Shown in pieces: positions 3,169-57,795 of a stretch of 64,000 nt of DNA (the stretch's first letter is position 1; every line of letters begins with the position of its first letter). The stretch is from Cytobacillus dafuensis (GTDB lineage Bacteria; Bacillota; Bacilli; Bacillales; Cytobacillaceae): positions 3,638,001-3,702,000 of the forward strand of contig NZ_CP042593.1 in the NCBI RefSeq assembly GCF_007995155.1, written 5' to 3'. Below the pieces are notes generated by a model, which was given only the letters and a program-made list of their open reading frames with translations, was not told where the DNA came from and made no database searches. The position numbers and the translations under genes were made by a program.

Positions 3169-3433
3169 ACGAAATGCGGATGCGCCTTGAAGAGGAACGT
3201 CAACTAAAAACTGCCACGTCCTGTGGCAAACGTCGACGTCAGCACATCCTGTGCAAGTCCGACAAGCATAAGACGAGCCGGCATAAAGGTTGTTCTTTAA
3301 CCTTTGTGACGGATTGGCTTATGACCTAGAGGTCGACAAAAACGAGATGTCCTGTCGCATTGTCGACACTAATACGTCTTGTACGTCGGTGCTAGGCGCT
3401 GAAGCTAGACAACGAAATGCGGATGCGCCTTGA
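3169..3433 (+). repeat. family 1 structured repeat, expanded copy
   Basis: Non-coding, fills most of the 352-base gap between ytaF and mutM. The core matches the other family 1 copies: CGACAAGCATAAGAC, a hairpin with loop GTTCTTT (arms AAAGGTT 3285-3291 and AACCTTT 3299-3305), GGCTTATGACC and an end TAGGCGCTGAAGCTAGAC. It is enlarged by two insertions (about 3191-3260 and 3335-3390) carrying small hairpins such as 3212-3228 (TGCCAC, loop GTCCT, GTGGCA) and 3242-3254 (GCAC, loop ATCCT, GTGC). A 22-base direct repeat (3169-3190 and 3412-3433) flanks it; the second copy looks like the start of another, truncated element abutting mutM. No mobility gene is present. Confidence 0.8.
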
Positions 3434-3456
3434 TCAGCGTCTATACTTTGAGAAAT

Positions 3457-4284
3457 TTACTTTTTTTGGCATGAAGGACAGAAGACTGTGCCTCGGCCAC
3501 CAACAACAATTCTTTCAAGCTCACTGTCACACACTTTGCAATTTTCCCCATTTCTTCCGTAGACAAAAAGCTCTAGTTGAAACATCCCGATTTGGCCTTG
3601 AGAGTTCACATACGAACGAATCGTACTTCCTCCTTTTTGAACAGCCTCTGCTAATGTAGAAATAATCTCTTTATACAACCTTGTCAATTCTAAATCAGAC
3701 AAGCTATCTGCCCGTCTTTCAGGATGTATTCTTGCTCGGAAAAGTGCTTCATCAACATAAATATTTCCTAAACCAACTACAATCTTCTGATCAAGGAGGG
3801 CTGTCTTTAAATGTCTCTTCGACTTCGAAAGCTTTACAGCTAAGATTTCTTTCGTAAATGCATCGGAAAGAGGTTCCGGGCCTAATTGCGACAATGGAAG
3901 GCAGTCATATTCTTGCCCTTTTAAATAAAGATGCATTGTCCCAAATTTTCTAACATCCTTATAGCGAAGCTCTGTACCATCTGTAAAGTGAAAAATAACA
4001 TGGGTATGCTTATCAGTCTCATCTGTATTCTTAAAAAGTCCGTATTTCCCCTCCATTCTTAGATGGGAAACAAGGGCAAAATCATCTGAATAAAGAATAA
4101 GATATTTACCTCTACGCCCTGTATTAATAAAAGTCTGACCGACTAAGGCATCTTTAAATTGAGCAACCTCTTCTGGATGCTTAATAATTTTGGGCCAAAA
4201 AACTGAAACGCTCTCAATTTTTTTATTGAGGATTAATTCATGTAATGTTCGGCGGATCGTTTCCACCTCTGGCATTTCTGGCAT
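3457..4284 (-). CDS. mutM: formamidopyrimidine-DNA glycosylase / AP lyase
   Basis: Removes 8-oxoguanine and formamidopyrimidines and cuts the abasic site. The 275-residue protein begins MPEMPEVETIRRTL; after Met removal, Pro1 is the Schiff-base nucleophile and Glu2 the acid. HLRMEGKYGL carries the conserved Lys. A C-terminal zinc finger (two CxxC pairs, CKVC and CPSC) includes the R of GGRGTVFCPSC. The third residue after PE is Met rather than the usual Leu, a conservative change. GGGGGG lies just upstream of the ATG. It sits downstream of polA, as in other bacilli. Confidence 0.95.
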   Translation of the reverse strand: MPEMPEVETIRRTLHELILNKKIESVSVFWPKIIKHPEEVAQFKDALVGQTFINTGRRGKYLILYSDDFALVSHLRMEGKYGLFKNTDETDKHTHVIFHFTDGTELRYKDVRKFGTMHLYLKGQEYDCLPLSQLGPEPLSDAFTKEILAVKLSKSKRHLKTALLDQKIVVGLGNIYVDEALFRARIHPERRADSLSDLELTRLYKEIISTLAEAVQKGGSTIRSYVNSQGQIGMFQLELFVYGRNGENCKVCDSELERIVVGGRGTVFCPSCQKK

Positions 4285-4332
4285 CGAACCCCCCCGTTCA
4301 TTGATATTAAAAAAATATGTGCTTCTACTTTT

Positions 4333-6963
4333 CTATTTTGCATCAAACCACGTTGGTCCGTATGAGAAATCAACTTTAAGCGGGACTTTTAATTCAACCG
4401 CATTTTCCATTACCTCGGGTACTATTTTCTTCAGCACTTCAATTTCTTCTTTCGGCGCTTCAAATATTAATTCATCATGAACTTGAAGAAGTAGCTTTGT
4501 TTTCAAGTTTTCATTTTTTAGACGAGCAGCCATATCAATCATTGCTTTTTTAATAATATCTGCCGCACTTCCTTGAATAGGTGTATTCATTGCAGTACGT
4601 TCTGCAAAGCTGCGAAGATTGAAATTTCTGCTAGTAATCTCAGGGAGATACCTTCTACGGTTAAGCAAAGTAGATACAAAGCCTTTTTGTTTCGCATCTA
4701 TTACGATCTCTTCCATATATTGTTTCACGCCTGGATAACTTTCTAAATAACGGTCAATGAAATTTCCTGCTTCTTTGCGCGAAATACCAAGGCTTTGAGA
4801 CAGACCGTAATCACTAATTCCATACACAATTCCAAAATTTACAGCCTTGGCATGGCGACGCATATTAGAAGTAACTTCCTCTTCACTTACATGGAACACT
4901 TCCATAGCTGTTTTTGTATGAATATCCATGTCCTTTTTAAATGCATCAATTAACTTTTCATCTTCTGCAATGTGGGCTAGCACCCTTAATTCAATCTGAG
5001 AATAATCTGCTGCAAAAATAACCCAATCCTTATTAGATGGAATAAAAGCTTGTCTAATCTTTCTTCCTTCTTCAAGCCTAATTGGGATGTTTTGAAGGTT
5101 CGGATCTGTTGAGCTTAGTCTGCCTGTTTGGGTAAGGGCCTGATTAAATCTCGTATGAACTTTTTCATTTTCTTTATTTGCGATTTTAAGTAATCCTTCT
5201 ATATAGGTAGATTGAAGCTTTCCTAACTGTCTGTAATGAAGTATTTCCTTGATAATTTCATGATCCTGTTCAAGCTTTTCAAGAACATCTGCAGACGTGG
5301 AATAGCCAGTTTTTGTCTTCTTAAATACAGGAAGCCCTAACTTTTCAAATAAAATAACACCTAGTTGTTTTGGTGAATTGATATTAAATTTTTCCCCTGC
5401 TAATTCATGAATCCTTGCTTCAATATCTACAAGCTTTCCTTGTATTTCCTCTCCCATTTTCTTTAAACGGTCGAGATCCATCTTAATCCCTGAAGACTCC
5501 ATGTCAGCCAAAATTAGTGATAAAGGCAATTCCAAATCATAGAATAACTCTGCTTGCTGATTTTCCTGAAGTTCATTGTCCAACTTATCCTTTAAAGACA
5601 TAAGGGCATCTGCTTTTCTAGAAAGATGCTCTGCAAGCAACTCTTCTTCTGGCACCTTTCTTTTTGCTCCCTTTCCATAAAATGCTTCATTTGATTGAAC
5701 AGATGTATAGCCATGTTTTTTTACAGCAGATGCGACATCTTCAATCGTTTCAGATGGATCGATCAGGTAAGAAGCGATAAGCAAATCAAAGCTTATTCCA
5801 GCTAAATGAATTCCATGGTGTCGTAGTGAGACCTCTGATCTCTTAGCATCATAAACAAATTTTTTCTTGCTCTCATCCTCTGCCCATTGTTTAAAAATAG
5901 GCGAAGAAAGTGCTGTCTCTGTTGAAATATAGAAATTGCCTTTATCATTCGTAATGGAAAAACCAAGGATATCAGCATAGTGGTAATTATCTTCCAATAT
6001 CTCTACATAAAAAGCATTTTCATCAGAAAAAATTTCCTCTGTTAATTCTTTTACAATGGTAAAATCAATTTCTTCTAGATTTACTTCGTCTGTACCAGCT
6101 GTTTCGTCACCAAGCTTGTCTAATAAGGAATTAAATCCAAGCTCTTTATATATGCTAACGACTTTTTCTTTGTCGAATCCTTCGTATTCGATTTCACTAA
6201 TTTGTATATCAACGGGAGCTTCTCTCGTAATCGTTGCCAGTTCTTTACTCATTAAAGCCTGGTCCTTAAATTCTTCTAGTTTTTCCTTTAGCTTTTTCCC
6301 GCTAACATGCTCGACAGAATCAAGAAGAGACTCAAGAGTTCCAAATTCCTTGAGTAATTTTAAGGCTGTCTTTTCACCTACACCGGGCACACCAGGAATA
6401 TTATCAGAGCTATCCCCCATTAATCCCTTCATATCAATAATTCGTTCTGGAGTGATTCCATATTTTTCTTGAATATAAGAAGGTGTATATTCCTCAATAT
6501 CCGTAATTCCTTTGCGGGTGATCGCAACCGTTGTCAAACTTGAGCTTAATTGGGTTAAGTCTTTGTCTCCTGATATAACCTTTACCTCATAACCATCTTT
6601 TTCAGCTTGAAGTGACAGAGTTCCTATAATATCATCCGCTTCATAATTCTCAAGCTCATACCGTGAAATCCTATAAGCGTCTAAAAGTTCTCGAATAAAC
6701 GGAAATTGTTCTGATAATTCAGGAGGTGTTTTTTGTCTTCCACCCTTATATTCACTAAAAGTCTTATGGCGAAATGTAGTTTTTCCCGCATCAAACGCTA
6801 CAAGGATATGAGTAGGTTTTTCATCCTCAAGTATTTTTGATAGCATCATTGTAAATCCATAGACAGCATTTGTATGTATTCCTTTATCATTATTCAGCAA
6901 TGGCAGAGCAAAAAATGCGCGATAAGCAATGCTGTTACCATCAATTAAGACTAATTTTTTCAA
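4333..6963 (-). CDS. polA: DNA polymerase I
   Basis: Repair and Okazaki-fragment processing polymerase, 876 residues. The order is: 5'-3' exonuclease domain (about 1-290, with VAFDAGKTTFRH and GDSSDNIPGVPGVG), a degenerate 3'-5' exonuclease-like domain (about 300-470), and the family A polymerase domain. Motif A is DYSQIELRVLAH, motif B RRHAKAVNFGIVYG and motif C VHDELIFE. The proofreading domain lacks the acidic metal ligands typical of E. coli, as in Bacillus enzymes. The start is a TTG behind GGAGGG. mutM follows about 50 bases downstream. Confidence 0.95.
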   Translation of the reverse strand: MKKLVLIDGNSIAYRAFFALPLLNNDKGIHTNAVYGFTMMLSKILEDEKPTHILVAFDAGKTTFRHKTFSEYKGGRQKTPPELSEQFPFIRELLDAYRISRYELENYEADDIIGTLSLQAEKDGYEVKVISGDKDLTQLSSSLTTVAITRKGITDIEEYTPSYIQEKYGITPERIIDMKGLMGDSSDNIPGVPGVGEKTALKLLKEFGTLESLLDSVEHVSGKKLKEKLEEFKDQALMSKELATITREAPVDIQISEIEYEGFDKEKVVSIYKELGFNSLLDKLGDETAGTDEVNLEEIDFTIVKELTEEIFSDENAFYVEILEDNYHYADILGFSITNDKGNFYISTETALSSPIFKQWAEDESKKKFVYDAKRSEVSLRHHGIHLAGISFDLLIASYLIDPSETIEDVASAVKKHGYTSVQSNEAFYGKGAKRKVPEEELLAEHLSRKADALMSLKDKLDNELQENQQAELFYDLELPLSLILADMESSGIKMDLDRLKKMGEEIQGKLVDIEARIHELAGEKFNINSPKQLGVILFEKLGLPVFKKTKTGYSTSADVLEKLEQDHEIIKEILHYRQLGKLQSTYIEGLLKIANKENEKVHTRFNQALTQTGRLSSTDPNLQNIPIRLEEGRKIRQAFIPSNKDWVIFAADYSQIELRVLAHIAEDEKLIDAFKKDMDIHTKTAMEVFHVSEEEVTSNMRRHAKAVNFGIVYGISDYGLSQSLGISRKEAGNFIDRYLESYPGVKQYMEEIVIDAKQKGFVSTLLNRRRYLPEITSRNFNLRSFAERTAMNTPIQGSAADIIKKAMIDMAARLKNENLKTKLLLQVHDELIFEAPKEEIEVLKKIVPEVMENAVELKVPLKVDFSYGPTWFDAK

Positions 6964-7046
6964 ATAAATCCCTCCATCAAAAAACCGTTATTTCCTTTCT
7001 TCATTCTACCATGAGCAAACAAAGAAAGAAAAATAACGGTTTTAAA

Positions 7047-7982
7047 TTATTCAGTATAACCCATTAGCAAGCGGGCATATGGAGAATCAGACGGCAATAC
7101 AATGACCGTTTCGCCGTTAATTGTCTTTTTATATGATTCAAGAGTTCTGTATAAAGAATAGAAGTTCGGATCCTTTGAAAAAGCTTCATTATAAATTTTT
7201 GCTGCTCCTGCTTCACCTTCAGCACGAATCGTTTCAGCATCTGCTTGAGCTTTTGCTAATATTTCCCTAACCTGCTTATCCGTGTTAGCGATTATTTTAT
7301 TTTTCTCTGCATCCCCTTTTGATAAATATTCTTGAGCTGTCGATTGGCGCTCAGAAATCATTCTAGTGTACACAGATTGCTCATTCTCAGCTGGCAAATC
7401 TGTTCGTTTAATACGAACATCCGTCACAACTATCCCATAATTATCTTTTTCTAATAGTTCATTTACCTTTTCAGTGATTTGGTCATTTAATGAACCGCGT
7501 GATGATTTACCATCGTTAATAATATCAGCATAATTTAAACGACCAAGTTCTGCACGAGTGACAGAATAAATGAACTCTTCCATTCTTGATTCTGCACCCT
7601 CTAACGTCCTAGCATTAGCGATCATTTTCTTTGGATCTTCAATTCGCCAGACAGCATAATTATCAATAATCATCCGCTTTTTATCTTTAGTATTAATCTC
7701 TGCTTCTGATACATCATACGTTAATTGATGTTTTGGAAGTGTTGATACGCTTTGCACAAACGGAATTTTATAATTAAGACCAGGTTCATCTATAATTTTA
7801 ACAACTTCACCAAACTGGCGAACTACTTTAAATTCTCCCTCTTTCACAACAAAAAGATTACTAAAAATCAGCCCGAGCAACACGAGTAGGATTACAAAAA
7901 ATATTCCCACTTTTATATATTTTCTCCACTCAAAATTATTTTGGCCATGTTCATTTATATTCACTACATTTTGATCAGACAT
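7047..7982 (-). CDS. hflC: HflC-type SPFH membrane protein (FtsH modulator)
   Basis: SPFH/prohibitin-family protein of 311 residues. A single N-terminal membrane segment (about 24-46) is followed by the SPFH domain (VVKEGEFKVVRQFG onward) and an Ala/Glu-rich coiled coil (about 215-260). HflC and HflK form a large membrane complex around the FtsH protease in E. coli. Its ATG overlaps the TAA of hflK by one base, so the two are translationally coupled. I do not recall this pair at this place in B. subtilis, so it is probably an insertion or ancestral retention relative to that species. Confidence 0.9.
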   Translation of the reverse strand: MSDQNVVNINEHGQNNFEWRKYIKVGIFFVILLVLLGLIFSNLFVVKEGEFKVVRQFGEVVKIIDEPGLNYKIPFVQSVSTLPKHQLTYDVSEAEINTKDKKRMIIDNYAVWRIEDPKKMIANARTLEGAESRMEEFIYSVTRAELGRLNYADIINDGKSSRGSLNDQITEKVNELLEKDNYGIVVTDVRIKRTDLPAENEQSVYTRMISERQSTAQEYLSKGDAEKNKIIANTDKQVREILAKAQADAETIRAEGEAGAAKIYNEAFSKDPNFYSLYRTLESYKKTINGETVIVLPSDSPYARLLMGYTE

Positions 7983-8962
7983 TATTTCTTTTCACTTCCT
8001 TCCTCTTTTTCTTGTGGAAGTTCATTTTCTTTTGGAAGCTCTTTTTCAAGTGGACGAATTGGGAAGTACTTCATGGTGTTCCCATCATCATTCATGATAT
8101 AAATTTGTGCACTTGGCAGAACTTGCTCAAGTGTTTCTAGAACAAGGCGCTCTTTTGTAATATCAGGATTTTTGCGATATTCTTCATACAGCTTGTTAAA
8201 AACCGCAACATCACCACGTGCTTTTTCTAAGCGGGCTGCTTTCTCTCCTTCTGCCTTTAATTTAATGGCAGCCTCTTCACCCTTCACTTCATTCATTCGT
8301 TGATTGACATATTTATCTGCTTCATTCTTTTTCGTATTCGCTGTTTCACGTGCATCGGTTACATCTGTAAAGGCTTTACGGACTTCTTCATTTGGAAGTT
8401 CAACATCTTGAAGCTTTACTGCTAGGATAGAAATTCCAATGTCATAATTCTTAACTAGCGATGATAATAAATCTCTAACATCTGCTTCAATATCTGCTTT
8501 TCCAGATGTTAAGGCGTCATCAATTGATGAATTTCCAATAATGCTTCTTAATGAAGCAGATGTTGCATCATAAAGAATTTCTTTTGGATTTTGCGCATTA
8601 TATAAATATTTTTCAGGATCTGTGATTTTCCATTGCACAACTAGATCTGCTAGAACTATGTATTCATCGCCTGTGATCATTTTTGTTTCTTCGGGAAAGT
8701 CCTTCATTTTTTCAGCTTTTCCTTCATAGCCAAATTGCAGACTGAATGTTTCTTTGGAAACCTTTTCAACAGTTTGAATTGGCCATGGTAATTTAAAATG
8801 GAGACCAGGCTCTGTTATGCCTTCCTCAACCTTTCCAAAAGTTAAAATAACAGCTTGGTCAGATTCATCAACTGTATACCATGTAGTAAATGCTGTAATA
8901 CCTAAAATAATAATTAAAAGTACAAGTCCAGTTATTGTATATATTTTCTTTAAGCTAACCAT
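7982..8962 (-). CDS. hflK: HflK-type SPFH membrane protein (FtsH modulator)
   Basis: Partner of HflC, 326 residues. It has one membrane anchor (about 7-29), the SPFH domain (TVDESDQAVILTFGKV, EPGLHFKLPWPIQTVEKV), a helical coiled-coil region (about 205-265) and a charged Glu/Lys-rich tail. The PGLHFKLPWPI motif is typical of HflK as opposed to HflC. First gene of a two-gene unit, with GGGGAG before the ATG. Expected to face the outer side of the membrane and restrain FtsH; the function here is inferred from family membership. Confidence 0.9.
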   Translation of the reverse strand: MVSLKKIYTITGLVLLIIILGITAFTTWYTVDESDQAVILTFGKVEEGITEPGLHFKLPWPIQTVEKVSKETFSLQFGYEGKAEKMKDFPEETKMITGDEYIVLADLVVQWKITDPEKYLYNAQNPKEILYDATSASLRSIIGNSSIDDALTSGKADIEADVRDLLSSLVKNYDIGISILAVKLQDVELPNEEVRKAFTDVTDARETANTKKNEADKYVNQRMNEVKGEEAAIKLKAEGEKAARLEKARGDVAVFNKLYEEYRKNPDITKERLVLETLEQVLPSAQIYIMNDDGNTMKYFPIRPLEKELPKENELPQEKEEGSEKK

Positions 8963-9035
8963 TTTCTCTCCCCTTCCTTTTACTTTTTATAACATTTAAT
9001 ACGATTTATTCTAAAAAAGGTTTCAATTATATAAC

Positions 9036-9074
9036 GAAAAAAGACGAAAGCGGGGTATGCTTTCGTCTTTTTTC
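9036..9074. terminator. strong bidirectional terminator after phoR
   Basis: A perfect 16-bp stem: arms 9036-9051 and 9059-9074 with a 7-base loop, A/T tracts at both ends and GACGAAAGC in the core. It lies 115 bases beyond the phoR stop codon and upstream of hflK, so it insulates phoPR from hflKC. No gene is seen between 9075 and 9188. Confidence 0.9.
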
Positions 9075-9188
9075 ATTTTTAGGATGAAAGGGTATTTCAC
9101 TTATAATTGTAGCAACCATATATTAAGAGGAAGTTTACAAATTGTTAAGATCATGTAAAAGCCACCCTTTTCCCACTTCATCCATTCA

Positions 9189-10958
9189 TTAGCTAATCGG
9201 AAATTTTTTATTCAATTCTACTAAGAATCTTGTCCCTTTACCAACCTCACTTACAACATGAATTTTTCCTTTATGCGCCTCTACTATATGTTTTACTATA
9301 GCAAGCCCTAGCCCTGTTCCTCCAGAATTACGGCTTCGTGCTTTATCCACTCTATAGAATCGCTCAAATATCCTATTTATTTCTTCTTTTTCTATTCCGA
9401 TCCCAGTGTCTTTTACTTCTACAAAAATATTTTTTTCTGTTTCTGATAATGAAAGTGAAACACTTCCTCCATTTGGAGTATAAGAAATAGCATTCGAAAC
9501 TAAATTAATAAAAATCTGTTTTAGTCGATTTGCATCTCCCTCAATGTGCATTGGTTTATGCCCTTGATCAAAGGTAATCTGTATTTCCTTTTCTACAGCT
9601 TTTTGATTTACAATGGCAATTACTGCATCTAGTGTGTCTGTAATATTGAATGTCTGAATATTGAGACTGAAACTATGTTGTTCGATTTTTGAGAGATCCA
9701 ACAAATCATGAATGAGCGACTGCAATCTGTCACTCTCTTGCAGAATGATTTTTATAAATGCTTCTAATGCTTGTTTGTCTTCCATGGCACCATCTAATAG
9801 CGTTTCTGAAAATCCTTTAATTGAAGTAATCGGAGTTTTTAATTCATGAGAAACATTCGCTACAAAATCCTTTCTCATTTGTTCAAGCTTCTTCAGATCC
9901 GAGATATCATGGAAGACTAGAAGGACTCCCTTCCATACATCATTCGTTCCAATAATCGGCGCCCCATATACCTCAAAATACCGTTTCCTACTTCTTAAAG
10001 GAATGATCATTTGCTTTTTTATCTTTTCCTCTGTCATAAAAATCTCTTCTATTAATGAGCTGATTTCTCGATGTTGAATCACCTCATAATATAGCTTATT
10101 TATAAATTCATCAGAATTTGAAATAAATATTTCTTTATAAGCACGATTCACCATGTTGATGTAACCTTTGCTGTCAATTAATATCAATCCGCTGCCCATG
10201 TTTTCGATAAGGGCTGCCAGCCTGTCTTGGTGCATTTCCTGGGATTTTCTCATATCCTGCAGGTTCCTTGCTAAGACATTAATTGAAGCACTTAGCATTC
10301 CAGTCTCATCAATATGATCCTCATATGTTCGGGCTCGATAATTTCCCTTTGCAAGTTCAATTGCAGCATTTGTTGCTGACTCAATTGGCTTAGTATAACG
10401 TGCTGTAATCCTTGAACCTAATAAAAGGATGACAACAAATGAAAAACCTAGGCTAATCGTTAACAACCACCATATTTGTTTATATGCATTATTAATTTCA
10501 GTCATTTTTGAACTAAGAAAAATATAGCCCTCGATTTTACCAGCTTGAAACACTGGCTTCCAATAGTAATGCAAATCATCGCCGGTGATGTCTTCAATTA
10601 AATAATGATTTTTACCTTTTTTCTTGATCATATCATTAATATTGTTTTGGTGTTCCTCATAGCTAGGTTCTTTTAACTTTCCACTATCATAAATAATGGC
10701 TCCTGAAATATCTACAACTGTTACACGAGCATCAAGCATCCTACTAAAATTATCTATCGTTTCATTTTTAAAAGATCGTATACCGCCTTCTTCTTCAACA
10801 AAACTTGATACGATTTCGATTTCTTTAATTAATCGCTGATCAAAGGCATTTAAATAATAACTTTTGAAAAGCTGCCCTAATAGTAGACCTAATCCGATTA
10901 AAACTGCAGATATTAAAGTGATTAGTGCAAAAAGGAGCCGTGAACGAAATTTCGTCAT
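9189..10958 (-). CDS. phoR: phosphate-responsive sensor histidine kinase PhoR
   Basis: Membrane sensor kinase of 589 residues. Membrane segments at about 8-30 and 162-183 enclose an extracytoplasmic PAS-like domain. HAMP (about 184-236), a cytoplasmic PAS (about 245-355), HisKA with phospho-accepting His371 in ANVSHELKTPITS, and HATPase with the N-box NLVSNAISYTPNGG and G-box GTGLGLAI follow. It autophosphorylates and passes the phosphate to PhoP under phosphate limitation. The start lies 2 bases after the phoP stop, so they form an operon. Confidence 0.93.
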   Translation of the reverse strand: MTKFRSRLLFALITLISAVLIGLGLLLGQLFKSYYLNAFDQRLIKEIEIVSSFVEEEGGIRSFKNETIDNFSRMLDARVTVVDISGAIIYDSGKLKEPSYEEHQNNINDMIKKKGKNHYLIEDITGDDLHYYWKPVFQAGKIEGYIFLSSKMTEINNAYKQIWWLLTISLGFSFVVILLLGSRITARYTKPIESATNAAIELAKGNYRARTYEDHIDETGMLSASINVLARNLQDMRKSQEMHQDRLAALIENMGSGLILIDSKGYINMVNRAYKEIFISNSDEFINKLYYEVIQHREISSLIEEIFMTEEKIKKQMIIPLRSRKRYFEVYGAPIIGTNDVWKGVLLVFHDISDLKKLEQMRKDFVANVSHELKTPITSIKGFSETLLDGAMEDKQALEAFIKIILQESDRLQSLIHDLLDLSKIEQHSFSLNIQTFNITDTLDAVIAIVNQKAVEKEIQITFDQGHKPMHIEGDANRLKQIFINLVSNAISYTPNGGSVSLSLSETEKNIFVEVKDTGIGIEKEEINRIFERFYRVDKARSRNSGGTGLGLAIVKHIVEAHKGKIHVVSEVGKGTRFLVELNKKFPIS

Positions 10959-10960
10959 AC

Positions 10961-11671
10961 TTATTTAGGCTCCTCTAGCTTGTACCCTAAACCACGAATT
11001 GTCTTTATATATATAGGCTTTTTAGTATCTTGCTCAATTTTTTCTCTTAGATGGCTAATATGCACATCAACAATTCTTGTATCACCAGCAAAGTCATAGT
11101 TCCATACCGCACTTAATAATTGATCTCTCGTCAGTACACGGCCCTTATTTTTAGCTAAATATAGCAGAAGTTCAAACTCTTTTGGTGTTAATTCAATTAA
11201 TTTCTCTTCAAAATATGCCTCATATTGATCAGGGAAAATTTTCAGACCTGAAATTTGAATATTATCTAATTCCTCTTCGATTTTCTCCATCGTCTCCGTT
11301 AGAGTTTGGGTTCTTCTCAAAATCGCTTTAACCCTTGCTATCACTTCTCTTGGACTAAATGGCTTCGTCATATAATCATCTGCACCTAGTTCTAAACCAA
11401 GAACTTTATCAAATTCATCATCTTTTGCAGTTAACATTAGTATTGGGGTCATTACCCTATTTTGGCGGAGTTCTTTACAAACCTCAATTCCATCCATCTT
11501 TGGCAGCATGAGATCAAGCACAATTAAATCAGGATTTTCTTGGATAGCAAGGTCCTTTCCTTCTTCCCCGTCCATAGCTGTTATCACATCATAACCAGCC
11601 TGCTTTAGATTGTACTCCAATAATGTTAAAATTGATTGTTCATCATCTACAACTAGAATTTTCTTCCCCAT
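10961..11671 (-). CDS. phoP: response regulator PhoP
   Basis: OmpR-family regulator of 236 residues. The receiver domain has the acidic pocket VVDDE (Asp9-Asp10), phospho-acceptor Asp53 in IVLDLMLP, and the Lys of MTKPFSP. The C-terminal winged helix includes LTPKEFELLLYLA and VDVHISHLREKIE. It controls the Pho regulon together with PhoR, directly downstream. CGGAGG precedes the ATG. In B. subtilis mdh lies immediately upstream of phoP; here about 760 bases of repeats and a MaoC-like gene intervene. Confidence 0.95.
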   Translation of the reverse strand: MGKKILVVDDEQSILTLLEYNLKQAGYDVITAMDGEEGKDLAIQENPDLIVLDLMLPKMDGIEVCKELRQNRVMTPILMLTAKDDEFDKVLGLELGADDYMTKPFSPREVIARVKAILRRTQTLTETMEKIEEELDNIQISGLKIFPDQYEAYFEEKLIELTPKEFELLLYLAKNKGRVLTRDQLLSAVWNYDFAGDTRIVDVHISHLREKIEQDTKKPIYIKTIRGLGYKLEEPK

Positions 11672-12093: not shown

Positions 12094-12145
12094 ATCTTAA
12101 TAGCAGATATTTAATTGAAAACACTCATTACTTTAGTACGTTTAT

Positions 12146-12416
12146 AAAGTGAAACTTCAATCAGTGGGGGTTTTCCTTCATCCCCCACTGATTGTTAGTC
12201 ACGCTGAGCCTGATTGAATTTTCTAAGGGCTGAGGCCCAAAGAAAATTCTTATTTCACCAATCACGCTCAAAACGCCACGTTCTGTGGCTTGCGCCTGAC
12301 TAGGACATCCTGTCCGTCGTCGGGCTTTTACGGGCTGTTGATCCCCCACTTAGAAATTTATTCTTAACTCAACTTCTTGAGGTGGGGGTCTTACAGCCCG
12401 TTAATCTGCGATAAAC
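12146..12416 (+). repeat. family 2 structured repeat, copy A
   Basis: A 271-base non-coding element. Its left hairpin has arms ATCAGTGGGGG (12160-12170) and CCCCCACTGAT (12182-12192). The right hairpin has arms ACGGGCTGT (12330-12338) with ACAGCCCGT (12393-12401), continued by GATCCCCCAC and GTGGGGGTC. It ends TTAATCTGCGATAAA. The middle is a tower of stems (GAATTTTCT 12216-12224 with AGAAAATTC 12241-12249) plus two small hairpins: 12275-12289 (GCCAC, loop GTTCT, GTGGC) and 12303-12315 (GGAC, loop ATCCT, GTCC), the latter inside GCCTGAC...GTCGGGC. Same ends as copy B at 57520, different middle. Confidence 0.85.
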
Positions 12417-15431: not shown

Positions 15432-15553
15432 AGAAAAGCGCAAGCGCCTCGGTCACCCCCGACAAGCACAAGACAAGCCTCCTAGAAAGGTGTTCTTTAC
15501 CTTTCTGGGAGGATTGGTTTGTGACCTCGAGGGGGTAGGCGCTGGAGCTAGAC
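15432..15553 (+). repeat. family 1 structured repeat
   Basis: AGAAAAGCGCAAGCGCC to GGCGCTGGAGCTAGAC. Nested arms: AGCGCCT with AGGCGCT, CCCCC with GGGGG, CACAAG with TTTGTG, CCTCC with GGAGG, then AGAAAGGT (15484-15491) with ACCTTTCT (15499-15506) around the family loop GTTCTTT. It lies between icd and citZ in the opposite orientation to both, and would be transcribed as an antisense fold in the operon mRNA. Confidence 0.85.
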
Positions 15554-36592: not shown

Positions 36593-36712
36593 AGAAAAGC
36601 GCAAGCGCCTTGCCCACCCCCGACAAGCATAAGACAGGCCGACTTGAAAGTTGTTCTTTAACTTTCTTGGCGGACTGACTTATGACGTCGGGGGTAGGCG
36701 CTGGAGCTAGAC
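36593..36712 (+). repeat. family 1 structured repeat
   Basis: AGAAAAGCGCAAGCGCC to GGCGCTGGAGCTAGAC. Nested arms: AGCGCC with GGCGCT, CCCCCGAC with GTCGGGGG, CATAAG with CTTATG, then GAAAGTT (36646-36652) with AACTTTC (36660-36666) around loop GTTCTTT. It lies in the 3' untranslated region of the M24 peptidase gene, same orientation, before the terminator hairpin. Confidence 0.87.
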
Positions 36713-50378: not shown

Positions 50379-51566
50379 TTATTTTGTTAATTTCATTACA
50401 TCACGTGCAATCATGACTTCTTCATTTGTTGGAATGACCATAACTTTTACAGGTGAATGAGGATAATTAATAAATGCTTCTTCTCCACGAACCTTATTTA
50501 GTGCAGGATCACAATAAACACCCATGAATTCAAGACCTTGAATTACTCGTGCACGAATGACATCACTGTTCTCTCCAATTCCAGCTGTGAAAATGATGGC
50601 ATCAACTCCGTACATTCGCGCAGCGTATGAACCAATATATTTATGGATTCTGCCTGCAAATACTTCAAGTGCTAATTTCGACCGTTCATCGCCTTCTGAT
50701 GCATGGGTCTCTATATCACGCAAGTCACTTGAAAATCCTGAAACCGCTAACATTCCACTCTTTTTATTCAGGACATCTAATACCTCGTCTGCCGTTTTAT
50801 TTGTTTTTTCCATAATAAATGGAATTAAGGCAGGGTCAATATTCCCAGATCGTGTCCCCATTGTAACACCAGCTAACGGTGTAAACCCCATTGAGGTGTC
50901 AATGGATTTCCCGCCTTCAATCGCAGCAATACTTGCACCATTGCCAAGATGGCAGGAAATTAAACGAAGTTGATCTAATGGGCGGCCAAGCATTGCAGCA
51001 GCCCGCTGCGAAACATATTTATGAGAAGTGCCGTGAAATCCATATTTTCGAATTCCGTACTTTTTGTAATATTCATATGGCAGGCTATATAAAAACGAGC
51101 TTTCTGGCATTGTTTGATGAAATGCAGTATCAAAGACAGCAATAGCCGGAACATTAGGAAGAGCATGCTTAAAAGCTTCGATTCCCGTTATATTAGCAGG
51201 ATTATGTAAGGGAGCAAGCTCTGATAGTGCATCAATCTTTTTCAAAACCTCTTCATTAATTAAAACAGAATCAGAAAATTCTTCACCGCCATGAACGACT
51301 CTATGGCCAATTCCATCTATTTCATTTAATGAATGAATAATTCCTAAGGATGTTAATTTCTCTAATAAAAGCTTAACAGCTATTTCATGATTAGGTATTT
51401 CCATCGTTTCTTTTATTTTTTTACCATTTGCAACAATGTTAAATATCGAATCATTTAATCCAATGCGTTCAATTAATCCCTTCGTTATTACCTCTTCGCT
51501 CGGCATTTCAAATAGTTGAAATTTCAATGAAGAGCTGCCGGCATTTATCGCAATTATTTTTGCCAT
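50379..51566 (-). CDS. ackA: acetate kinase
   Basis: Interconverts acetyl phosphate and acetate with ATP formation, the overflow route from acetyl-CoA. 395 residues. Motifs: N-terminal [56 protein letters not shown] and [13 protein letters not shown]; the C-terminal [11 protein letters not shown] carries the conserved Glu. AAAGGAG precedes the ATG. No cre site was recognised in the 209-base upstream gap. ytxK lies upstream, as in B. subtilis. Confidence 0.96.
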
Positions 51567-51738
51567 ATATACAACCGCTCCTTTTAAAGGATTTCTTATT
51601 ATTCATTCTTGTTTTTCTTTATTTTGTACTTCAAAACATATTAGCATCTCTCGAGTATTCATTTAATCATTATTAATCAAAATTTTCAAGAATCACCATA
51701 TATTTTACCTACTATTAGAATACTACACTTTTGAAAAT

Positions 51739-51781
51739 AAATAAGAAGGAAGCCACACTTTTGTGGGCTTCCTTCTTATTT
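51739..51781. terminator. terminator at the end of ytxK
   Basis: Arms 51739-51754 and 51766-51781 give a 16-bp stem (core GAAGGAAGCC/GGCTTCCTTC) with an 11-base loop. It overlaps the ytxK stop codon and separates it from ackA. Confidence 0.87.
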
Positions 51782-52759
51782 ATTTTCTTTAAACCATATA
51801 TCAATTTTATTCAGTATTTTCTCTACTTCCACAGTTTTTGACAAGCTAGGCAGATGCACAAGAAGAACTTGTTTCGGAGGCTTTACACCTTCTCCCTTCT
51901 TTTGCAGGATAAATATACTTTTTGCAGCCTTTTCATTTTTAAATATCGATTGCGGCAGCTGTAAGAACCCCTGAATATTTGTATATTTCTTTATGTATTC
52001 ATGAAGCTTTGAAGCCTGCTCACTTTCAAAAAGACCATTCGGTACAATAAAAAATAAATATCCGCCCTCTTTCACATGCCGAACGCTTTGTTCAATAAAA
52101 AGATGGTGAGCAAATGTATGCCCTTGATCTGCCTTCATTTCGTATTCTGATGCTCTAAGATCATTTGGATAATATCCTACAGGCAAGTCACTTACTACCA
52201 CATCTGCCTTCTCTATAAATAATGATTCTAGGCTATCTTGATTAAAAAATTGAATTGGGTGCTGCTGCAGATTTGCATTAACATAACTCAGTTTAATTAA
52301 TATATCGTCAATATCGATCCCCGTAGCCTCAACCATTTTGTTTTGCTGTTGATTGATAACGGTTGTTAAAAGGTTTCCTGTTCCCACAGCAGGGTCAAGT
52401 AATCGAAATTCGTTTTTCTGTACAAACTTATCAACTAAATAGCCAATGAGCAGTCCAATAGCATCAGGTGTCATTTGATGATTCGGCTGAATAAGCTCGT
52501 TCATTCCTTTAAGAATGGCAAGCTGGATGGATTTTCGAATTTCTTCCTTCGAGTAATTCTCCATTTGAATCGTCTCATAATTTTTTCTTAATCTTTTTAC
52601 CGTCAATTCGCTCAATTCTTCCTGAAGGATACTTCCGTGAAAAATATTTTCCCCTGTTTCTGCTAATGCTTCTAAATATGTACATGCTAGTTCTTCTTGA
52701 ATGATCATTGCCGTTTCATTAAAAACAGTAAACAATTCCTCAACCGGTGTACTATTCAT
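51776..52759 (-). CDS. ytxK: class I SAM-dependent methyltransferase YtxK
   Basis: A 327-residue protein with an N6-adenine-methylase-like fold: motif I LLDPAVGTGNLL (about 119-130), an acidic motif VEATGIDIDD, and motif IV VVSDLPVGYYP at the place of (D/N)PPY. An N-terminal helical domain of about 100 residues precedes it. No restriction or specificity partner lies nearby, so it is not an obvious restriction system; the target is unknown. Position beside ackA and tpx matches B. subtilis ytxK. Confidence 0.86.
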   Translation of the reverse strand: MNSTPVEELFTVFNETAMIIQEELACTYLEALAETGENIFHGSILQEELSELTVKRLRKNYETIQMENYSKEEIRKSIQLAILKGMNELIQPNHQMTPDAIGLLIGYLVDKFVQKNEFRLLDPAVGTGNLLTTVINQQQNKMVEATGIDIDDILIKLSYVNANLQQHPIQFFNQDSLESLFIEKADVVVSDLPVGYYPNDLRASEYEMKADQGHTFAHHLFIEQSVRHVKEGGYLFFIVPNGLFESEQASKLHEYIKKYTNIQGFLQLPQSIFKNEKAAKSIFILQKKGEGVKPPKQVLLVHLPSLSKTVEVEKILNKIDIWFKENK

Positions 52760-52869
52760 TATATATTCCTCCCGATTCTTTTCTATTGTCCTATTTTAAC
52801 GAGGTTTTATTTTTATCACAAGTATTAGGGGATAGTAACAAACAAGAATTCATTTTACTTACTCAAGTA

Positions 52870-52899
52870 AAAAAAAAAAGAAGCTCAACATTGAGCTTC
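52870..52899 (-). terminator. tpx terminator
   Basis: GAAGCTCA (52880-52887) and TGAGCTTC (52892-52899) form an 8-bp stem with a tetraloop-sized loop, followed on the minus strand by ten T residues (52870-52879). It lies beyond the family 1 repeat, so the repeat is part of the tpx transcript. Confidence 0.92.
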
Positions 52900-52928
52900 C
52901 ATTCAGGACATGGCTTAAGCTTTTCTTT

Positions 52929-52996
52929 GTCTAGCTCCAGCGCCTAGGGGCTCGACTTATGCTTGTCGCCCCTGATCACGGCGCTTCCGCTTTTCT
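52929..52996 (-). repeat. family 1 structured repeat, minimal copy
   Basis: On the minus strand it reads AGAAAAGCGGAAGCGCC to GGCGCTGGAGCTAGAC in only 68 bases. AGCGCC pairs with GGCGCT, AGGGGC with GCCCCT, and the tip is CGACAAGCATAAGTCG. It lacks the inner hairpin with the GTTCTTT loop found in longer copies, so it shows the basic unit into which other copies seem expanded. It begins 2 bases after the tpx stop, same orientation. Confidence 0.85.
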
Positions 52997-52998
52997 AC

Positions 52999-53499
52999 TT
53001 ACTTCGCTTGCTTTGCAGCTTCAACTGCTGCTTCGTAATTTGGATGATCTGTTGCTTCGCTTACATATTCTGCATATGTAACTGTATCATTCGAATCAAC
53101 TACAAATACAGCACGTGCTAGAAGGCGTAGCTCTTGAATAGCCACTCCATAAGCTTCTCCAAAAGAAAGCTCGCGATGGTCTGAAACAGTTTGAACATTT
53201 TCAATTCCAGCTGCTGCACACCAACGTTTTTGAGCAAACGGAAGATCCACACTAACAGTTAAGATCTTTACATTATCTAATTTAGATGCCTCTTCATTAA
53301 AACGGCGGGTTTGCGCATCACAAACACCCGTATCGATTGAAGGAACTACACTGATTAAACGAACATGTCCTTTGGAATCAGCTAAAGTAACTGCAGATAA
53401 ATCATTTGCAAGAACCTTAAAATCTGGAGCTTTATCTCCTACTTTAACTTCATTTCCTAATAAAGTTACTGGATTCCCTTTAAAAGTAATTGACGCCAT
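52999..53499 (-). CDS. tpx: thiol peroxidase
   Basis: Atypical 2-Cys peroxiredoxin reducing hydroperoxides with thioredoxin. The ATG at 53499 ([15 protein letters not shown]) with AAGGAGG upstream gives 166 residues, the family length; an upstream in-frame ATG lacks a site. Peroxidatic Cys60 is in [15 protein letters not shown], resolving Cys94 in [10 protein letters not shown] family 1 repeat and a strong terminator follow in its 3' region. Confidence 0.95.
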
Positions 53500-53626
53500 T
53501 ATTTCATCCTCCTTAAACAACATATGTACAATGTAAATCATATCTTTTCAAAATCTTTTTTGCAATTATTTCATTTTATTTCGTATTAAAATTATCTTTT
53601 TTTTCAATACTCTAATGGCCAAGAAA

Positions 53627-53664
53627 AAAGTTAACCTCTCCTAACTGTTGGAAAAGTTAACTTT
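53627..53664 (-). terminator. ytfJ terminator
   Basis: AAAGTTAAC (53627-53635) and GTTAACTTT (53656-53664), with partial inner pairing, followed on the minus strand by TTTTTT-rich sequence. It begins 6 bases after the ytfJ stop. Confidence 0.82.
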
Positions 53665-53669
53665 AATAC

Positions 53670-54140
53670 TTAAATATTTAAATCATGCTTTGGGCCATTA
53701 TAGTCTTGGTTTTTATTATGAGTATGATCGCTGCTTCCTTGTTTGTTTTTATTGTTAAACATCTGTTGGATCTTATCGACTGCTTGAGGAGCAAGATCGA
53801 GAATTCTCTCGTATAAATGTGTGCTTTCATCAAGATGAACCATTTTCACGCCACCAGAGTTGACGATAAGAAATGCGATCGGAGTGATCGATACTCCGCC
53901 TCCGCTTCCACCGCCAAATGGATGTCCACTCGATTGCCCTTGCCCGCCACTATTGGACTGGCTGTCTAGCTTGAATTCGCTGCCACCAGCTGCAAAACCG
54001 AATCCAACCTTTGAAACAGTCAATATTACACTGCCATCTGGTGTTTCAACTGGATCACCAATAATTGTATTAACATCAATCATTTCCTTCAGATTTTCCA
54101 TAGCAGTTGTCATTAATCCTTGAATTGGATGCTCAGACAT
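53670..54140 (-). CDS. ytfJ: sporulation protein YtfJ (GerW)
   Basis: A 156-residue protein of the GerW/YtfJ family: EHPIQGLMTTAMENLKEMIDVNTIIGDP at the N-terminus, KVGFGFAAGGSEF in the middle, a Gly-rich loop (about 85-100) and VSITPIAFLIV. In B. subtilis GerW is needed for L-alanine-triggered germination. The C-terminus is Asn/His-rich. It starts 18 bases after ytfI, in the same unit. Confidence 0.9.
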   Translation of the reverse strand: MSEHPIQGLMTTAMENLKEMIDVNTIIGDPVETPDGSVILTVSKVGFGFAAGGSEFKLDSQSNSGGQGQSSGHPFGGGSGGGVSITPIAFLIVNSGGVKMVHLDESTHLYERILDLAPQAVDKIQQMFNNKNKQGSSDHTHNKNQDYNGPKHDLNI

Positions 54141-54158
54141 CTACTAAAACCCCCTCTT

Positions 54159-54848
54159 CTATACTGATTTTGTTTTATTATTAGAAAGAGCGGCTAACGG
54201 CTTTGTTCTAAATCTAGCCCTTCCACCTTTCCAATATTTAATTAATTTGATTCCTGCTAACATAGCATGTCCGATTCGAAAATAAATCATACATGAAATG
54301 GTTGTTTGTGAGACGGCAACTTGGAATTGAGGGGTAATCGTAATGTTCGGGAATGATTTCAATCTCATAAAATGACTTACCACTCCAACAATGCTTCCTT
54401 TAACTGCCCAAAAAGCTCCTGTCAGCATCCCCGTATATGCTGCATCTCCAATCCCAATTGTTGTATGCCACTCCAGTGTTTGAATCGTCACTTTTCTCAA
54501 GAACTTTTTAATAATTCTATTAATGGAGACAACACTATGAAGTAATTCCCTCATATCATGCATGCTATCAAGCATATACTTTGCACTATATTGCTTCGTA
54601 TCCTTCTTTATTGAATCACTTTCATTCCCCTTCTGTTGCTTCACTACAATAGTTGGGGAATCATCATCAATTTTAATAAGGGGCATTTCAATTTTATATT
54701 TAATCAAGCCAAACCAAGCTTTGATTTCAATTTTCAAATGATCATCATCATTAAAATGAGTAAAATGCAATAAAATTTTTAATTTTGTTATGATGATGAT
54801 GATAAAAAGTAATATAAGAATAATTAAGGCTATAAGCACCCATTTCAA
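54159..54848 (-). CDS. ytfI: DUF2953 membrane-anchored protein YtfI
   Basis: A 229-residue protein with an N-terminal membrane helix (about 2-21, all hydrophobic Ile/Leu) and a DUF2953 region (IEIKAWFGLIKYKIEMPLI, WHTTIGIGDAAYTGMLTGAFWAVKG, TITPQFQVAV). It precedes ytfJ, as in B. subtilis. Likely sporulation-linked by context; molecular role unknown. The start is TTG. Confidence 0.82.
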   Translation of the reverse strand: MKWVLIALIILILLFIIIIITKLKILLHFTHFNDDDHLKIEIKAWFGLIKYKIEMPLIKIDDDSPTIVVKQQKGNESDSIKKDTKQYSAKYMLDSMHDMRELLHSVVSINRIIKKFLRKVTIQTLEWHTTIGIGDAAYTGMLTGAFWAVKGSIVGVVSHFMRLKSFPNITITPQFQVAVSQTTISCMIYFRIGHAMLAGIKLIKYWKGGRARFRTKPLAALSNNKTKSV

Positions 54849-54895
54849 ATATATTCACAACCTTTCAGCCTATTATTATAGCCTTTGCAAAAAAA

Positions 54896-54934
54896 AATAA
54901 ACCTGTAAGCTCTATTGAGTCTAACAGGTTTATT
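54896..54934 (-). terminator. sppA-yteJ terminator
   Basis: AATAAACCTGT (54896-54906) and ACAGGTTTATT (54924-54934) form an 11-bp stem, followed on the minus strand by nine T residues. It lies 9 bases after the yteJ stop. Confidence 0.9.
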
Positions 54935-54943
54935 ATGAAATCA

Positions 54944-55480
54944 TTAATTCTCGTGGACAACCGTTGTATCTGTAAAGATATCATGCAATCCTTGTTTTTT
55001 CGGTAAAAATGCAACAATGACATACCCAATTACGATTGTACCTGATATAAATCGTCCAATCCATTCTCTAAAAATAATGGTTCCCCATGTCAGCTTCTTC
55101 CCTTTTAGATCAACAACCCTCAAGCCAAAAACCATTTTTCCTAAAGTTTGGTTAAAGAAACGTGTCATTAGAACGAAATAAACATAAAACGTAATAGCTG
55201 TTGCAATTGAAATTGGTGCAAAGAAATTATATTCAATTAGAGATATATCTAATAGCCTAAAAATTGGATTAATAATTAATCGATCAATACTGCCTATAAC
55301 TATTAAATCAAGTAAAAAAGCCCAAAATCGCATCCAAAATCCAGCAAATCGAACCGGATTAGAGCTGCTATTCGATTCACTCTTTTCTAAAGATGGACTG
55401 GCTATCGTTGTATCAGTATGATGGACATCTTGTTCCGCAATTGAAAACTCTTTTTCTTCAGATTGATTTAAAGTCATCAT
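54944..55480 (-). CDS. yteJ: RDD family membrane protein YteJ
   Basis: A 178-residue protein with a charged N-terminal region (about 1-42) and the RDD domain of three membrane helices: FAGFWMRFWAFLLDLIVIG, ATAITFYVYFVLMTRFF and FREWIGRFISGTIVIGYVIVAF, with QTLGKMVFGLRVVD between them. It starts 8 bases after sppA. In B. subtilis YteJ works with SppA and restrains it during lantibiotic stress. Confidence 0.88.
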   Translation of the reverse strand: MMTLNQSEEKEFSIAEQDVHHTDTTIASPSLEKSESNSSSNPVRFAGFWMRFWAFLLDLIVIGSIDRLIINPIFRLLDISLIEYNFFAPISIATAITFYVYFVLMTRFFNQTLGKMVFGLRVVDLKGKKLTWGTIIFREWIGRFISGTIVIGYVIVAFLPKKQGLHDIFTDTTVVHEN

Positions 55481-55488
55481 TGCACCTC

Positions 55489-56499
55489 CTACTCAGCATA
55501 TAAATACATAAGACGCGGAGAATTAGGCTGTGACAAGAGCTTCATCAAGCCTGCCATTTCGGTGTCTTTGCCGATAAACTTTTGCGTTCCCATACTAAAA
55601 ATGGAGCCAAATCCAAGATTCTCAGTATACTTTACAACTTTTGCATCATTAAGCTTTTGATCCTTCTTCATTGTTTCAATAACGTCATCAAGATAACCGA
55701 ACTCATCAATTAAATTTAACTCTTTCGCTTGACGGCCATCATAAATTCTTCCATCTGCAATTTCTTTTACTTTTGCAGCAGGAATATTACGCCCTTCAGA
55801 AATCACCTTCACAAAGCCTTCATAAGAATTATTGATCATTGCTTGCAAAATTTTTCTTTCTTCTTCTGTCATTTCCCTTGATGGGCTCATGATATCCTTA
55901 TATGGACCACTTTTAATCGTTACGAAATCTACACCGTACTTTTCAGCAAGACCGGAATAATTGATTCCTTGCATAATGACGCCAAGTGAGCCCGTTAATG
56001 TCTCAGGACTTGCAAAAATTTTATCTGCTGGTGCTGAAATATAATACCCACCTGAAGCAGCCATTGAGCCCATTGATACATAGACAGGCTTCTTTGTTTC
56101 CGTTTGAATTTCTTTAATTTTGTCGTGTATCTCAGCACTTTCTACGACTCCACCACCTGGTGAATTCACTCGAATAATTACCGCTCTAACAGTATCATCT
56201 TCTTTTACTTGCTCGAGCTTTTTCATAAAGGCTTTATGATTATATCCTGCTGAAGTAAAAAGAGAAGTGGGCTGGCCTGTATCTTGGATGACACCATCTA
56301 CTTCAAGAACTGCAATTTTTTTGAGCTCGTTTCCTTCCTCAATTACTTCCTCTACAAATGCATCATTACTGCTTGCAAACATCTCTGTAAATGAGCTTTC
56401 AACATCCTTGAATGCAAGCCCCGTAAGAAAATTTGTAAAAACTGAAAAAATAAATAATCCAAACGCAATCCCTAATGCGGCCCATCGCTTTCCATTCAT
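55489..56499 (-). CDS. sppA: signal peptide peptidase SppA
   Basis: Membrane-anchored serine protease that degrades leftover signal peptides, 336 residues. One N-terminal anchor (about 7-25), then the ClpP-like domain. Catalytic Ser149 is in MAASGGYYIS and general base Lys201 in SGPYKDIMSP, equivalent to Ser147/Lys199 of the B. subtilis protein. First gene of sppA-yteJ, with GGAGGAT before the ATG. Confidence 0.95.
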   Translation of the reverse strand: MNGKRWAALGIAFGLFIFSVFTNFLTGLAFKDVESSFTEMFASSNDAFVEEVIEEGNELKKIAVLEVDGVIQDTGQPTSLFTSAGYNHKAFMKKLEQVKEDDTVRAVIIRVNSPGGGVVESAEIHDKIKEIQTETKKPVYVSMGSMAASGGYYISAPADKIFASPETLTGSLGVIMQGINYSGLAEKYGVDFVTIKSGPYKDIMSPSREMTEEERKILQAMINNSYEGFVKVISEGRNIPAAKVKEIADGRIYDGRQAKELNLIDEFGYLDDVIETMKKDQKLNDAKVVKYTENLGFGSIFSMGTQKFIGKDTEMAGLMKLLSQPNSPRLMYLYAE

Positions 56500-56599
56500 T
56501 TCTTAATCCTCCCTTTAAGAAAAACAACCTTTTGAATCTTTAAGAAGATAATATAATATCCCCTAAAGATGTCTCGCCCAATCTTAATAAGTCATAAAC

Positions 56600-56628
56600 T
56601 TTCAAATTGTTCTAAAAAAGTGTAAACT
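56600..56628 (+). promoter_or_regulatory. possible nadK2 promoter
   Basis: TTTCAA (56600-56605), a 17-base spacer and TAAACT (56623-56628) on the plus strand, about 94 bases upstream of the gene. Moderate match only. Confidence 0.45.
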
Positions 56629-56721
56629 AATTTTGATGAACATTACATATCATACCAAATAATCATGAACTTCGGTTGATCTATTATTTTTTTATTATCT
56701 TTATTATTTGGAGGAAAATAG

Positions 56722-57522
56722 ATGTCTACACGTCGTAACATATATTTTTATCATAAAAAAGATTCAGACATGAATCTTAAGGTTAAACCTCTTTATGAGC
56801 TTGCTAAGTTTCATCATTTTACAATTGTAAATGATTACAAAAAGGCCAATATTATCGTTAGCATTGGCGGAGATGGGACATTTTTACAAGCAGTTCGAAA
56901 AACTGGGTTCCGGGATGATTGTTTATATGCAGGAATTTCTACTCTTGGAAGTCTCAGCATGTATTGTGACTTTCATATTGATAATACAGATAAAATGATT
57001 GAGGCAATGACAAATGAACAGATTGAAGTCCGGCGTTATCCTACAATTGAAGTAACGATTGATGATCAAACTTCTTTTTATTGCTTAAATGAGTTCAGCA
57101 TCCGATCAGCTATTATTAAAACATTTGTATTGGATGTATTAATTGACGACTTGCATTTCGAAACTTTCCGAGGAGACGGAATGGTTGTTGCAACACCTAC
57201 CGGAAGCACCGCCTATAATAAATCTCTCAGAGGTTCAATAGTCGATCCGCTTCTTCCATGTCTTCAAGTAAGTGAAATGGCTTCACTCAATAATAATCGC
57301 TATCGTACACTTGGCTCGTCCTTCATATTAAGTGGAGAAAGAAAACTAACATTAGAAGTCGTACAAGACGGAAATGATCATCCGACCATGGGAATGGATA
57401 ATGAGGCATTGAGCATTCAACATGTTGAGAAAATTGATATTAAGCTCAGTGATAAAAAAATAAAAACTGTAAAATTAAAAGATAATTCCTTCTGGGAAAA
57501 GGTGAAAAGAACATTCTTATAA
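56722..57522 (+). CDS. nadK2: NAD kinase 2
   Basis: Phosphorylates NAD to NADP. 266 residues. The diagnostic GGDG motif is in VSIGGDGTFLQAVRK, the NE/D motif in YCLNEFSIRS, and the Gly-rich loop in GDGMVVATPTGSTAYNKS. Length and position beside sppA match YtdI, the second NAD kinase of bacilli. TTTGGAGGAAA precedes the ATG. A family 2 repeat begins at its stop codon. Confidence 0.94.
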   Translation: MSTRRNIYFYHKKDSDMNLKVKPLYELAKFHHFTIVNDYKKANIIVSIGGDGTFLQAVRKTGFRDDCLYAGISTLGSLSMYCDFHIDNTDKMIEAMTNEQIEVRRYPTIEVTIDDQTSFYCLNEFSIRSAIIKTFVLDVLIDDLHFETFRGDGMVVATPTGSTAYNKSLRGSIVDPLLPCLQVSEMASLNNNRYRTLGSSFILSGERKLTLEVVQDGNDHPTMGMDNEALSIQHVEKIDIKLSDKKIKTVKLKDNSFWEKVKRTFL

Positions 57523-57795
57523 AGTAAAACTTCCATCAGTGGGGGTTTTTCGACGCACAGGACGTGCTAGTGCCGACGTTGCCACAGGACGTGGCGTTCT
57601 TAGTCGGCCTTCATCCCCCACTGATAGTTAGTTGCGGCCCACAGGAAGTGGGTCACGCAGACTTTGCCACACGATGTGGCGCTTTTAATCTGTGTTCATT
57701 TTATGGGCATTTACGGGCAGTTGATCCCCCACTTACTCTTCTTTGCATACGCGAATCCTTGAAGTGGGGTCTTACTGCCCGTTAATCTGCGATAA
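57520..57795 (+). repeat. family 2 structured repeat, copy B
   Basis: Same ends as copy A at 12146. Left hairpin ATCAGTGGGGG (57535-57545) with CCCCCACTGAT (57615-57625), but its loop holds about 65 extra bases containing two small hairpins: 57555-57567 (GCAC, loop AGGAC, GTGC) and 57581-57595 (GCCAC, loop AGGAC, GTGGC) inside GCCGAC...GTCGGC. Middle hairpins are at 57638-57652 (CCCAC/GTGGG) and 57666-57680 (GCCAC/GTGGC). Right hairpin is ACGGGCAGT (57713-57721) with ACTGCCCGT (57774-57782), a compensated change from copy A. Ends TTAATCTGCGATAAA. No coding capacity of its own. Confidence 0.87.

Follow-up and report, generated by a model that had tools for sequence, protein, structure and literature searches.

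The ten small hairpins in the window analysed here, a stretch of 64,000 nucleotides from the genome of Cytobacillus dafuensis, are five copies of the two-hairpin RNA motif Bacillaceae-1 (Rfam RF01690), and this motif is probably a non-autonomous, fold-defined insertion cassette of the Bacillales that enters as a block and has been amplified in this genome through two larger repeats, carriers A and B. The unit has clear-cut edges within unrelated flanks, and among sibling rRNA operons and sibling repeats some carry it at a given place and others lack it there. The kind of motif is not new, being already catalogued, named and listed in Table 1 of Weinberg et al. 2010 (PMC2864571). The original prediction had thus correctly spotted a known RNA motif, and its reading of an inserted unit is well supported while its claim of novelty is not. 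The new part of the finding is the block-wise mobility, as suggested by the comparison of related genomes, in which the unit has come to lie in larger repeats and even in rRNA operons. No report of Bacillaceae-1 moving as a unit was found among the open-access records surveyed or in passages of PMC4333381, PMC2864571, PMC9029176, PMC4005645 and PMC2267715.

The unit is about 65-70 nt long and comprises two 5-bp hairpins in succession, the first of them enclosed by an 8-bp stem. All ten hairpins were confirmed at the predicted positions (Table 1); they pair into five two-hairpin modules, which rules out the single mini-hairpin as the unit. In a search with the Rfam covariance model, three of the five modules were above the RF01690 gathering cut-off of 35 bits, whereas modules 2 and 3 fell below Rfam reporting and were recovered solely with our own model, R2, which was built from 48 copies in 33 genomes. 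An intact counterpart of the decayed module 2 is present in another locus (L032).

Table 1. Modules and carrier repeats in the window. E values of R2 are over the window.
Feature	Hairpins	Positions	Strand	Scores or other basis	Location
Module 1	3212-3228, 3242-3254	3188..3255	+	RF01690 65.9 bits; R2 56.8 bits	Carrier A left arm
Module 2, decayed	3346-3356, 3373-3383	3322..3385	+	R2 18.3 bits, E 0.014	Carrier A right arm
Module 3, divergent	12275-12289, 12303-12315	12253..12316	+	R2 19.9 bits, E 0.0056	Middle of carrier B variant
Module 4	57555-57567, 57581-57595	57554..57619	-	RF01690 64.7 bits	Loop of carrier B first hairpin
Module 5	57638-57652, 57666-57680	57638..57704	-	RF01690 67.1 bits	Between the two large hairpins of carrier B
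Carrier A, palindromic repeat with two modules		3169..3434	+	Bounded by 22-nt direct repeat 3169-3190 / 3412-3433	
Carrier A core without modules		15459..15532	+	Comparison of carrier A copies	
Carrier A core without modules		36620..36686	+	Comparison of carrier A copies	
Carrier B with two modules		57519..57796	+	93% identity over 280 nt to the L003 copy	
Carrier B variant, both carrier B ends, different middle		12144..12415	+	BLAST pieces of carrier B 12144-12174, 12322-12415	

The proposed common form, nnAC-RTCCT-GTnn with a nearly fixed loop, holds for part of the set. RTCCT was present on one strand in 6 of the 10 loops, and five of these six are also closed by AC/GT on arms of 4 bp or longer, while the site at 3346 (loop GTCCT) lacks the AC closure; the four departing loops are GTTCT at 12275, GTCTT at 3373 and, on the minus strand, TTCCT at 57638 and ATCGT at 57666. 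If arms of 4 bp or longer are required, the strict pattern ACRTCCTGT occurs 5 times in the window; of 200 dinucleotide shuffles, 191 gave no occurrence and 9 a single one. Without the arm requirement the 9-mer is weaker evidence: it is likewise found 5 times, but one of the 200 shuffles also contained 5. Genome-wide, CACRTCCTGTG occurs 208 times versus once for the reversed control pattern. The hairpins are genuine and more frequent than chance would give.

Arm sequences that differ yet stay complementary had also been predicted, and the arms do covary strongly across genera. In the 48-copy alignment, standard pairs made up 95.9% of 844 cells (75.5% in shuffles), 14 of the 18 pairs had changed on both sides (9.3 in shuffles, with none of 500 as high) and the covariation score was 0.539, compared with 0.159 for shuffles and at most 0.108 for slid versions, figures to be read with the fact that set A1 consists chiefly of top-scoring copies, which biases it toward good pairing. 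Further pair types showed no excess in this alignment (24 versus 24.9 in shuffles). The covariation is real, and the suggestion of a recognised structure under selection is borne out as far as the structure is concerned. Covarying arms might alternatively be a by-product of the correction of quasi-palindromes by template switching, with neither selection nor insertion, and the rarity of wobble or A.C intermediates (14 of 846 cells) is in line with such a process. However, the loops, the junction segments CTAA and CAACG and the edges are conserved across 33 genomes, which already speaks against template switching as the whole story, and sites exist in both filled and empty form. We consider this explanation very improbable.

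As predicted, the modules occur in two separate repeat families, the carriers A and B, and in both orientations, with modules on either strand of the window. Depending on the copy, carrier A has a module in the left arm, in the right arm or in each of them, and the right-arm module may face either way (L032, L034, L007 and L068 versus L031 at 7658-7709 and L039). Apart from the cores in Table 1, a carrier A without modules is also found in L031, among the 17 carrier A copies listed. Copies of carrier B differ in whether the loop of their first hairpin contains a module (that of the variant in Table 1 does not), and a second module sits in the middle of the repeat. The fold of carrier B places module 5 outside either large hairpin, contrary to the claim that the modules always lie inside loops of larger hairpins, and insertion into hairpin loops only is ruled out by copies in rRNA spacers, in a tRNA array and in other intergenic DNA. 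Some apparently empty carriers may be deletions, since in L016 and L025 the stretch between two ACAGGACGTG repeats is missing.

Two loci contained an additional element of about 57 nt (CCCAAAAGC...CTTTCCTT) inside a mini-hairpin loop, directly after GTCCT (L068, approximately 1765-1830, and L031, approximately 11000-11055). GTCCT is repeated at the far end of the element and the two host modules have different arms; the module loop itself has received a nested insertion. Pieces related to this element were seen in L007 and in L031 near 7600. In L083 (2014-2145), two modules in opposite orientation stand head to head and nearly touch.

The conserved block of the 48 copies extends from about AAAGGA to GG-CC, and outside it the most frequent base reached at most 20 of 48 upstream and at most 31 of 48 downstream after the CC. 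In 19 genomes with few copies, 12 of the 25 loci lay inside an rRNA or tRNA gene or at most about 300 nt away from one, as did 7 of 30 loci in a second set that served to repeat the test (14 genomes; 30 fetched of 34 matches) and all four scanned loci, of six, in G053; the stable-RNA placement of L185 and L189 was made partly by reading the sequence, and the count leaves out L193 and L202 of G093, which are at least 593 nt from an rRNA match, and L275, which starts at a contig end. The type of site varies and includes the 16S leader, the 16S-23S and 23S-5S spacers, the region after the 5S rRNA gene and a tRNA array; one copy lies inside a 5S remnant of G097.

The same site was found both filled and empty at rRNA loci as well as in the carriers. 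A module was present in one of seven 16S leaders in G139 (one leader was masked further upstream, its insertion site being readable), in three of eight in G043 and in all eight in the related G235. In the 23S-5S spacer of the genus g24, G126 has a filled and G064 an empty site between matching flanks, and both states occur within G020 and within G098, as judged from the 27 loci listed out of 30 fetched (39 places in all), several of them cut by contig ends. These sibling sites, the carriers with and without a module and the sharp edges uphold the prediction of an inserted or copied unit, with the amendment that the unit is a hairpin pair with its outer stem. As a separate observation, the eight filled leaders of G235 (L243, L223 and the other six) look like a case of spread by gene conversion.

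No regular target duplication was seen in G126, G139 or G043, and the insertion sites differ: CCTG stands on both sides in G126, CTT is lost in G139 and a 28-nt hairpin is exchanged in G043. Since regular target duplication was not seen, some cases could represent spacer exchange or conversion between operons. The idea that the arms are copied from the target was suggested by G126, where hairpin 2 has a 3' half, CCTGTTAG, identical to the empty G064 site; G139 and G043 do not show this, and the idea was rejected as a general rule.

Placement beside stable RNA genes would also be expected of a host RNA element that acts in the precursors of rRNA and tRNA, where the RUCCU strand folds and aids processing or spacing and the dispersed copies are offshoots. 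Besides the proportions of low-copy and G053 loci given above, the orientation favours it: the RUCCU strand is codirectional with the stable RNA at 21 of 23 loci and, counted as genus-by-site events, in 12 of 14 (12 versus 2, p=0.013; 10 versus 2, p=0.039, if the two site-sharing pairs are counted once). Some rRNA sites are shared by different families (G107 with G203, and g24 with G053), a pattern consistent with ancient insertions that were retained through descent or transfer, possibly because of a role in the precursor RNA. Yet the module is absent from most operons of G139 and G043, two leaders (L180 and L278) carry it in the opposite orientation and its site within the operon is not constant, and we judge a dedicated precursor role to be improbable. 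The excess of RUCCU-sense copies in stable-RNA operons is not predicted by a strand-blind element either, unless the AGGAY sense is harmful there. The AGGAY strand of several modules matches a terminator-like pattern, and the rarity of the AGGAY sense in rRNA operons could be due to this pattern.

Under the insertion-cassette reading that we favour, the unit would enter as a block, in either orientation and without regular target duplication, and would persist where an extra hairpin is tolerated, as in palindromic repeats, rRNA leaders and spacers, and tRNA arrays. In this genome it would have multiplied by riding the larger palindromic repeats, carriers A and B. The least certain step is the movement itself, which may proceed via a folded single strand; because of such a route, the stems and the RTCNT / ANGAY loop would be kept whichever strand is transcribed.

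The C. dafuensis genome contains at least 150 matches to Bacillaceae-1 (150 of 658 candidates were scored, and all passed). Across the order, at least 120 of 249 genomes and at least 63 of 104 genera had a match. Among eight other genomes of the family of C. dafuensis, f1, three had 16, 5 and 1 copies and five had none, among up to 19 candidates scored, and the high copy number here beside few or no copies in these relatives points to a recent amplification. Modules were also found in 2 of 33 named loci searched with our own model, L116 of Peribacillus saganii and L156 of Neobacillus terrae. In another record, L115, titled Pseudomonas sp. ISL-84, a gene matches a protein of the window with the identity and span seen for Cytobacillus firmus DS1 (L117), and the title may be wrong.

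RF01690 has no known role in the catalogue and its discoverers were unsure of the strand, and the accessible text of Gardner and Eldai 2014 (PMC4333381) proposes its reverse complement as a binder of CsrA. According to this proposal, transcripts of the AGGAY strand present GGA hairpins in pairs that bind CsrA, in the manner of CsrB and RsmZ in gammaproteobacteria. The loops on this strand are of the same kind as those of SL3 and SL4 of RsmZ, for which PMC4005645 describes an AGGAX loop of five nucleotides closed by C-G and a low-micromolar affinity for RsmE. We also examined the distribution of csrA. Modules were present in 117 of 236 genomes with csrA compared with 3 of 13 without (p=0.087), in 2 of 4 versus 0 of 15 in family f23 (p=0.035), and in 118 of 239 versus 3 of 21 when pooled (p=0.0023), although shared descent confounds these tallies and the p values assume independence of genomes and copies. 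In the C. dafuensis genome itself, a leader hairpin CGTTCAC-AAGGAT-GTGAACG precedes the gene following csrA, which from its sequence we take to encode flagellin. In the csrA-less G052, the GGA core was lost in 15 of 15 good-arm hairpins, whereas it was kept in 129 of 160 in an 84-copy comparison set that includes L116 and L156, named records from outside the csrA survey; the G034 copy L203 was read by eye instead. Three genomes (G034, G052 and G053) nevertheless carry modules but gave no csrA match, so that the association is statistical only, and the loops are intact in two of them, G034 (2 copies) and G053 (marked as 7% contaminated).

Taken together, the tests of the CsrA proposal gave a divided picture. 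On the RUCCU strand, A.C outnumbered G.T by 18 to 7 in the other genomes and by 74 to 10 in C. dafuensis, but the excess is confined to the three outer pairs of the long stem, without which the counts were 4 versus 4 and 13 versus 9, respectively; given this location of the excess, inference of the strand from G.U bias was set aside. Orientation near protein genes was near random, with 42 AGGAY and 49 RUCCU codirectional placements in tandem, the remainder being 28 divergent, 20 convergent and 5 at locus edges (144 merged elements, crude ORF caller). A GGA in the hairpin loop exists on the AGGAY strand only, and, judging from orientation, the RUCCU sense would be the one mostly transcribed in stable-RNA operons; these RUCCU-sense copies still kept the core in 20 of 25 hairpins. 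Retention of the core was likewise independent of gene orientation (42 of 46 versus 34 of 39 in the other genomes, 37 of 54 versus 68 of 95 in C. dafuensis). ACGAY loops are common, and in one copy (L089 1560-1626, G032) both loops are ATCGT, with GGA on neither strand. For G032, many copies are listed that score as high as this one.

The most economical reading of these data is that the loop is kept for its fold on either strand and that GGA is the majority state. We regard CsrA binding as the function of the motif as unlikely, slightly more so once the outer pairs had been set apart in the A.C count. A combined possibility, that a fold-only mobile element of about 67 nt spreads across the Bacillales into rRNA operons and other repeats in either orientation and disperses CsrA-type hairpin pairs as decoys when suitably oriented, seems doubtful to us. 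Under the insertion-cassette reading, transcription of some copies may have a side effect, since their AGGAY strand resembles hairpins bound by CsrA. One array in G101 (L108 1414-1975) comprises five modules, or ten hairpins, in one orientation over approximately 560 nt, each module with one AGGAY and one ACGAY loop, and is a natural candidate for a CsrB-like transcript.

The Bacillaceae-1 family is generally described near rRNA operons. The copies studied here share its sequence, two-hairpin structure and RUCCU loops, and nearness to rRNA operons was found here too; they differ in forming a high-copy unit within larger repeats and in that two of the window copies score under the cut-off. The Rickettsia palindromic elements resemble the modules in being small, structured and able to enter other genes and repeats. 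They are known for insertions into protein genes, whereas here 5 of the 144 merged elements lie within an ORF, as called by the crude ORF caller. MITE- and REP-like repeats, such as bcr1 of the Bacillus cereus group in the descriptions available, resemble the modules in being short, structured, intergenic, noncoding and present in many copies. Unlike these, the 65-70-nt unit occurs across many genera, and neither the terminal inverted repeats nor the regular target-site duplication of a MITE were seen, the edges being AAGG and CCT only. The CsrA-binding RNAs of the CsrB and RsmZ type, as characterized in the accessible part of PMC4005645, have in common with the AGGAY strand a paired AGGAX loop on a stem closed by C-G. 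The modules differ from them in occurring in both orientations, in hundreds of dispersed copies, with many ACGAY loops and mostly with the other strand in sense in rRNA operons.

The filled and empty sibling rRNA operons give RF01690 a concrete biology and caution against treating every RF01690 copy as an sRNA gene; they weaken the CsrA proposal without excluding it. The entry of so small a unit without the usual marks of transposition becomes testable. If the decoy-spreading possibility were true, sites of regulatory RNA would be dispersed by a minimal selfish unit.
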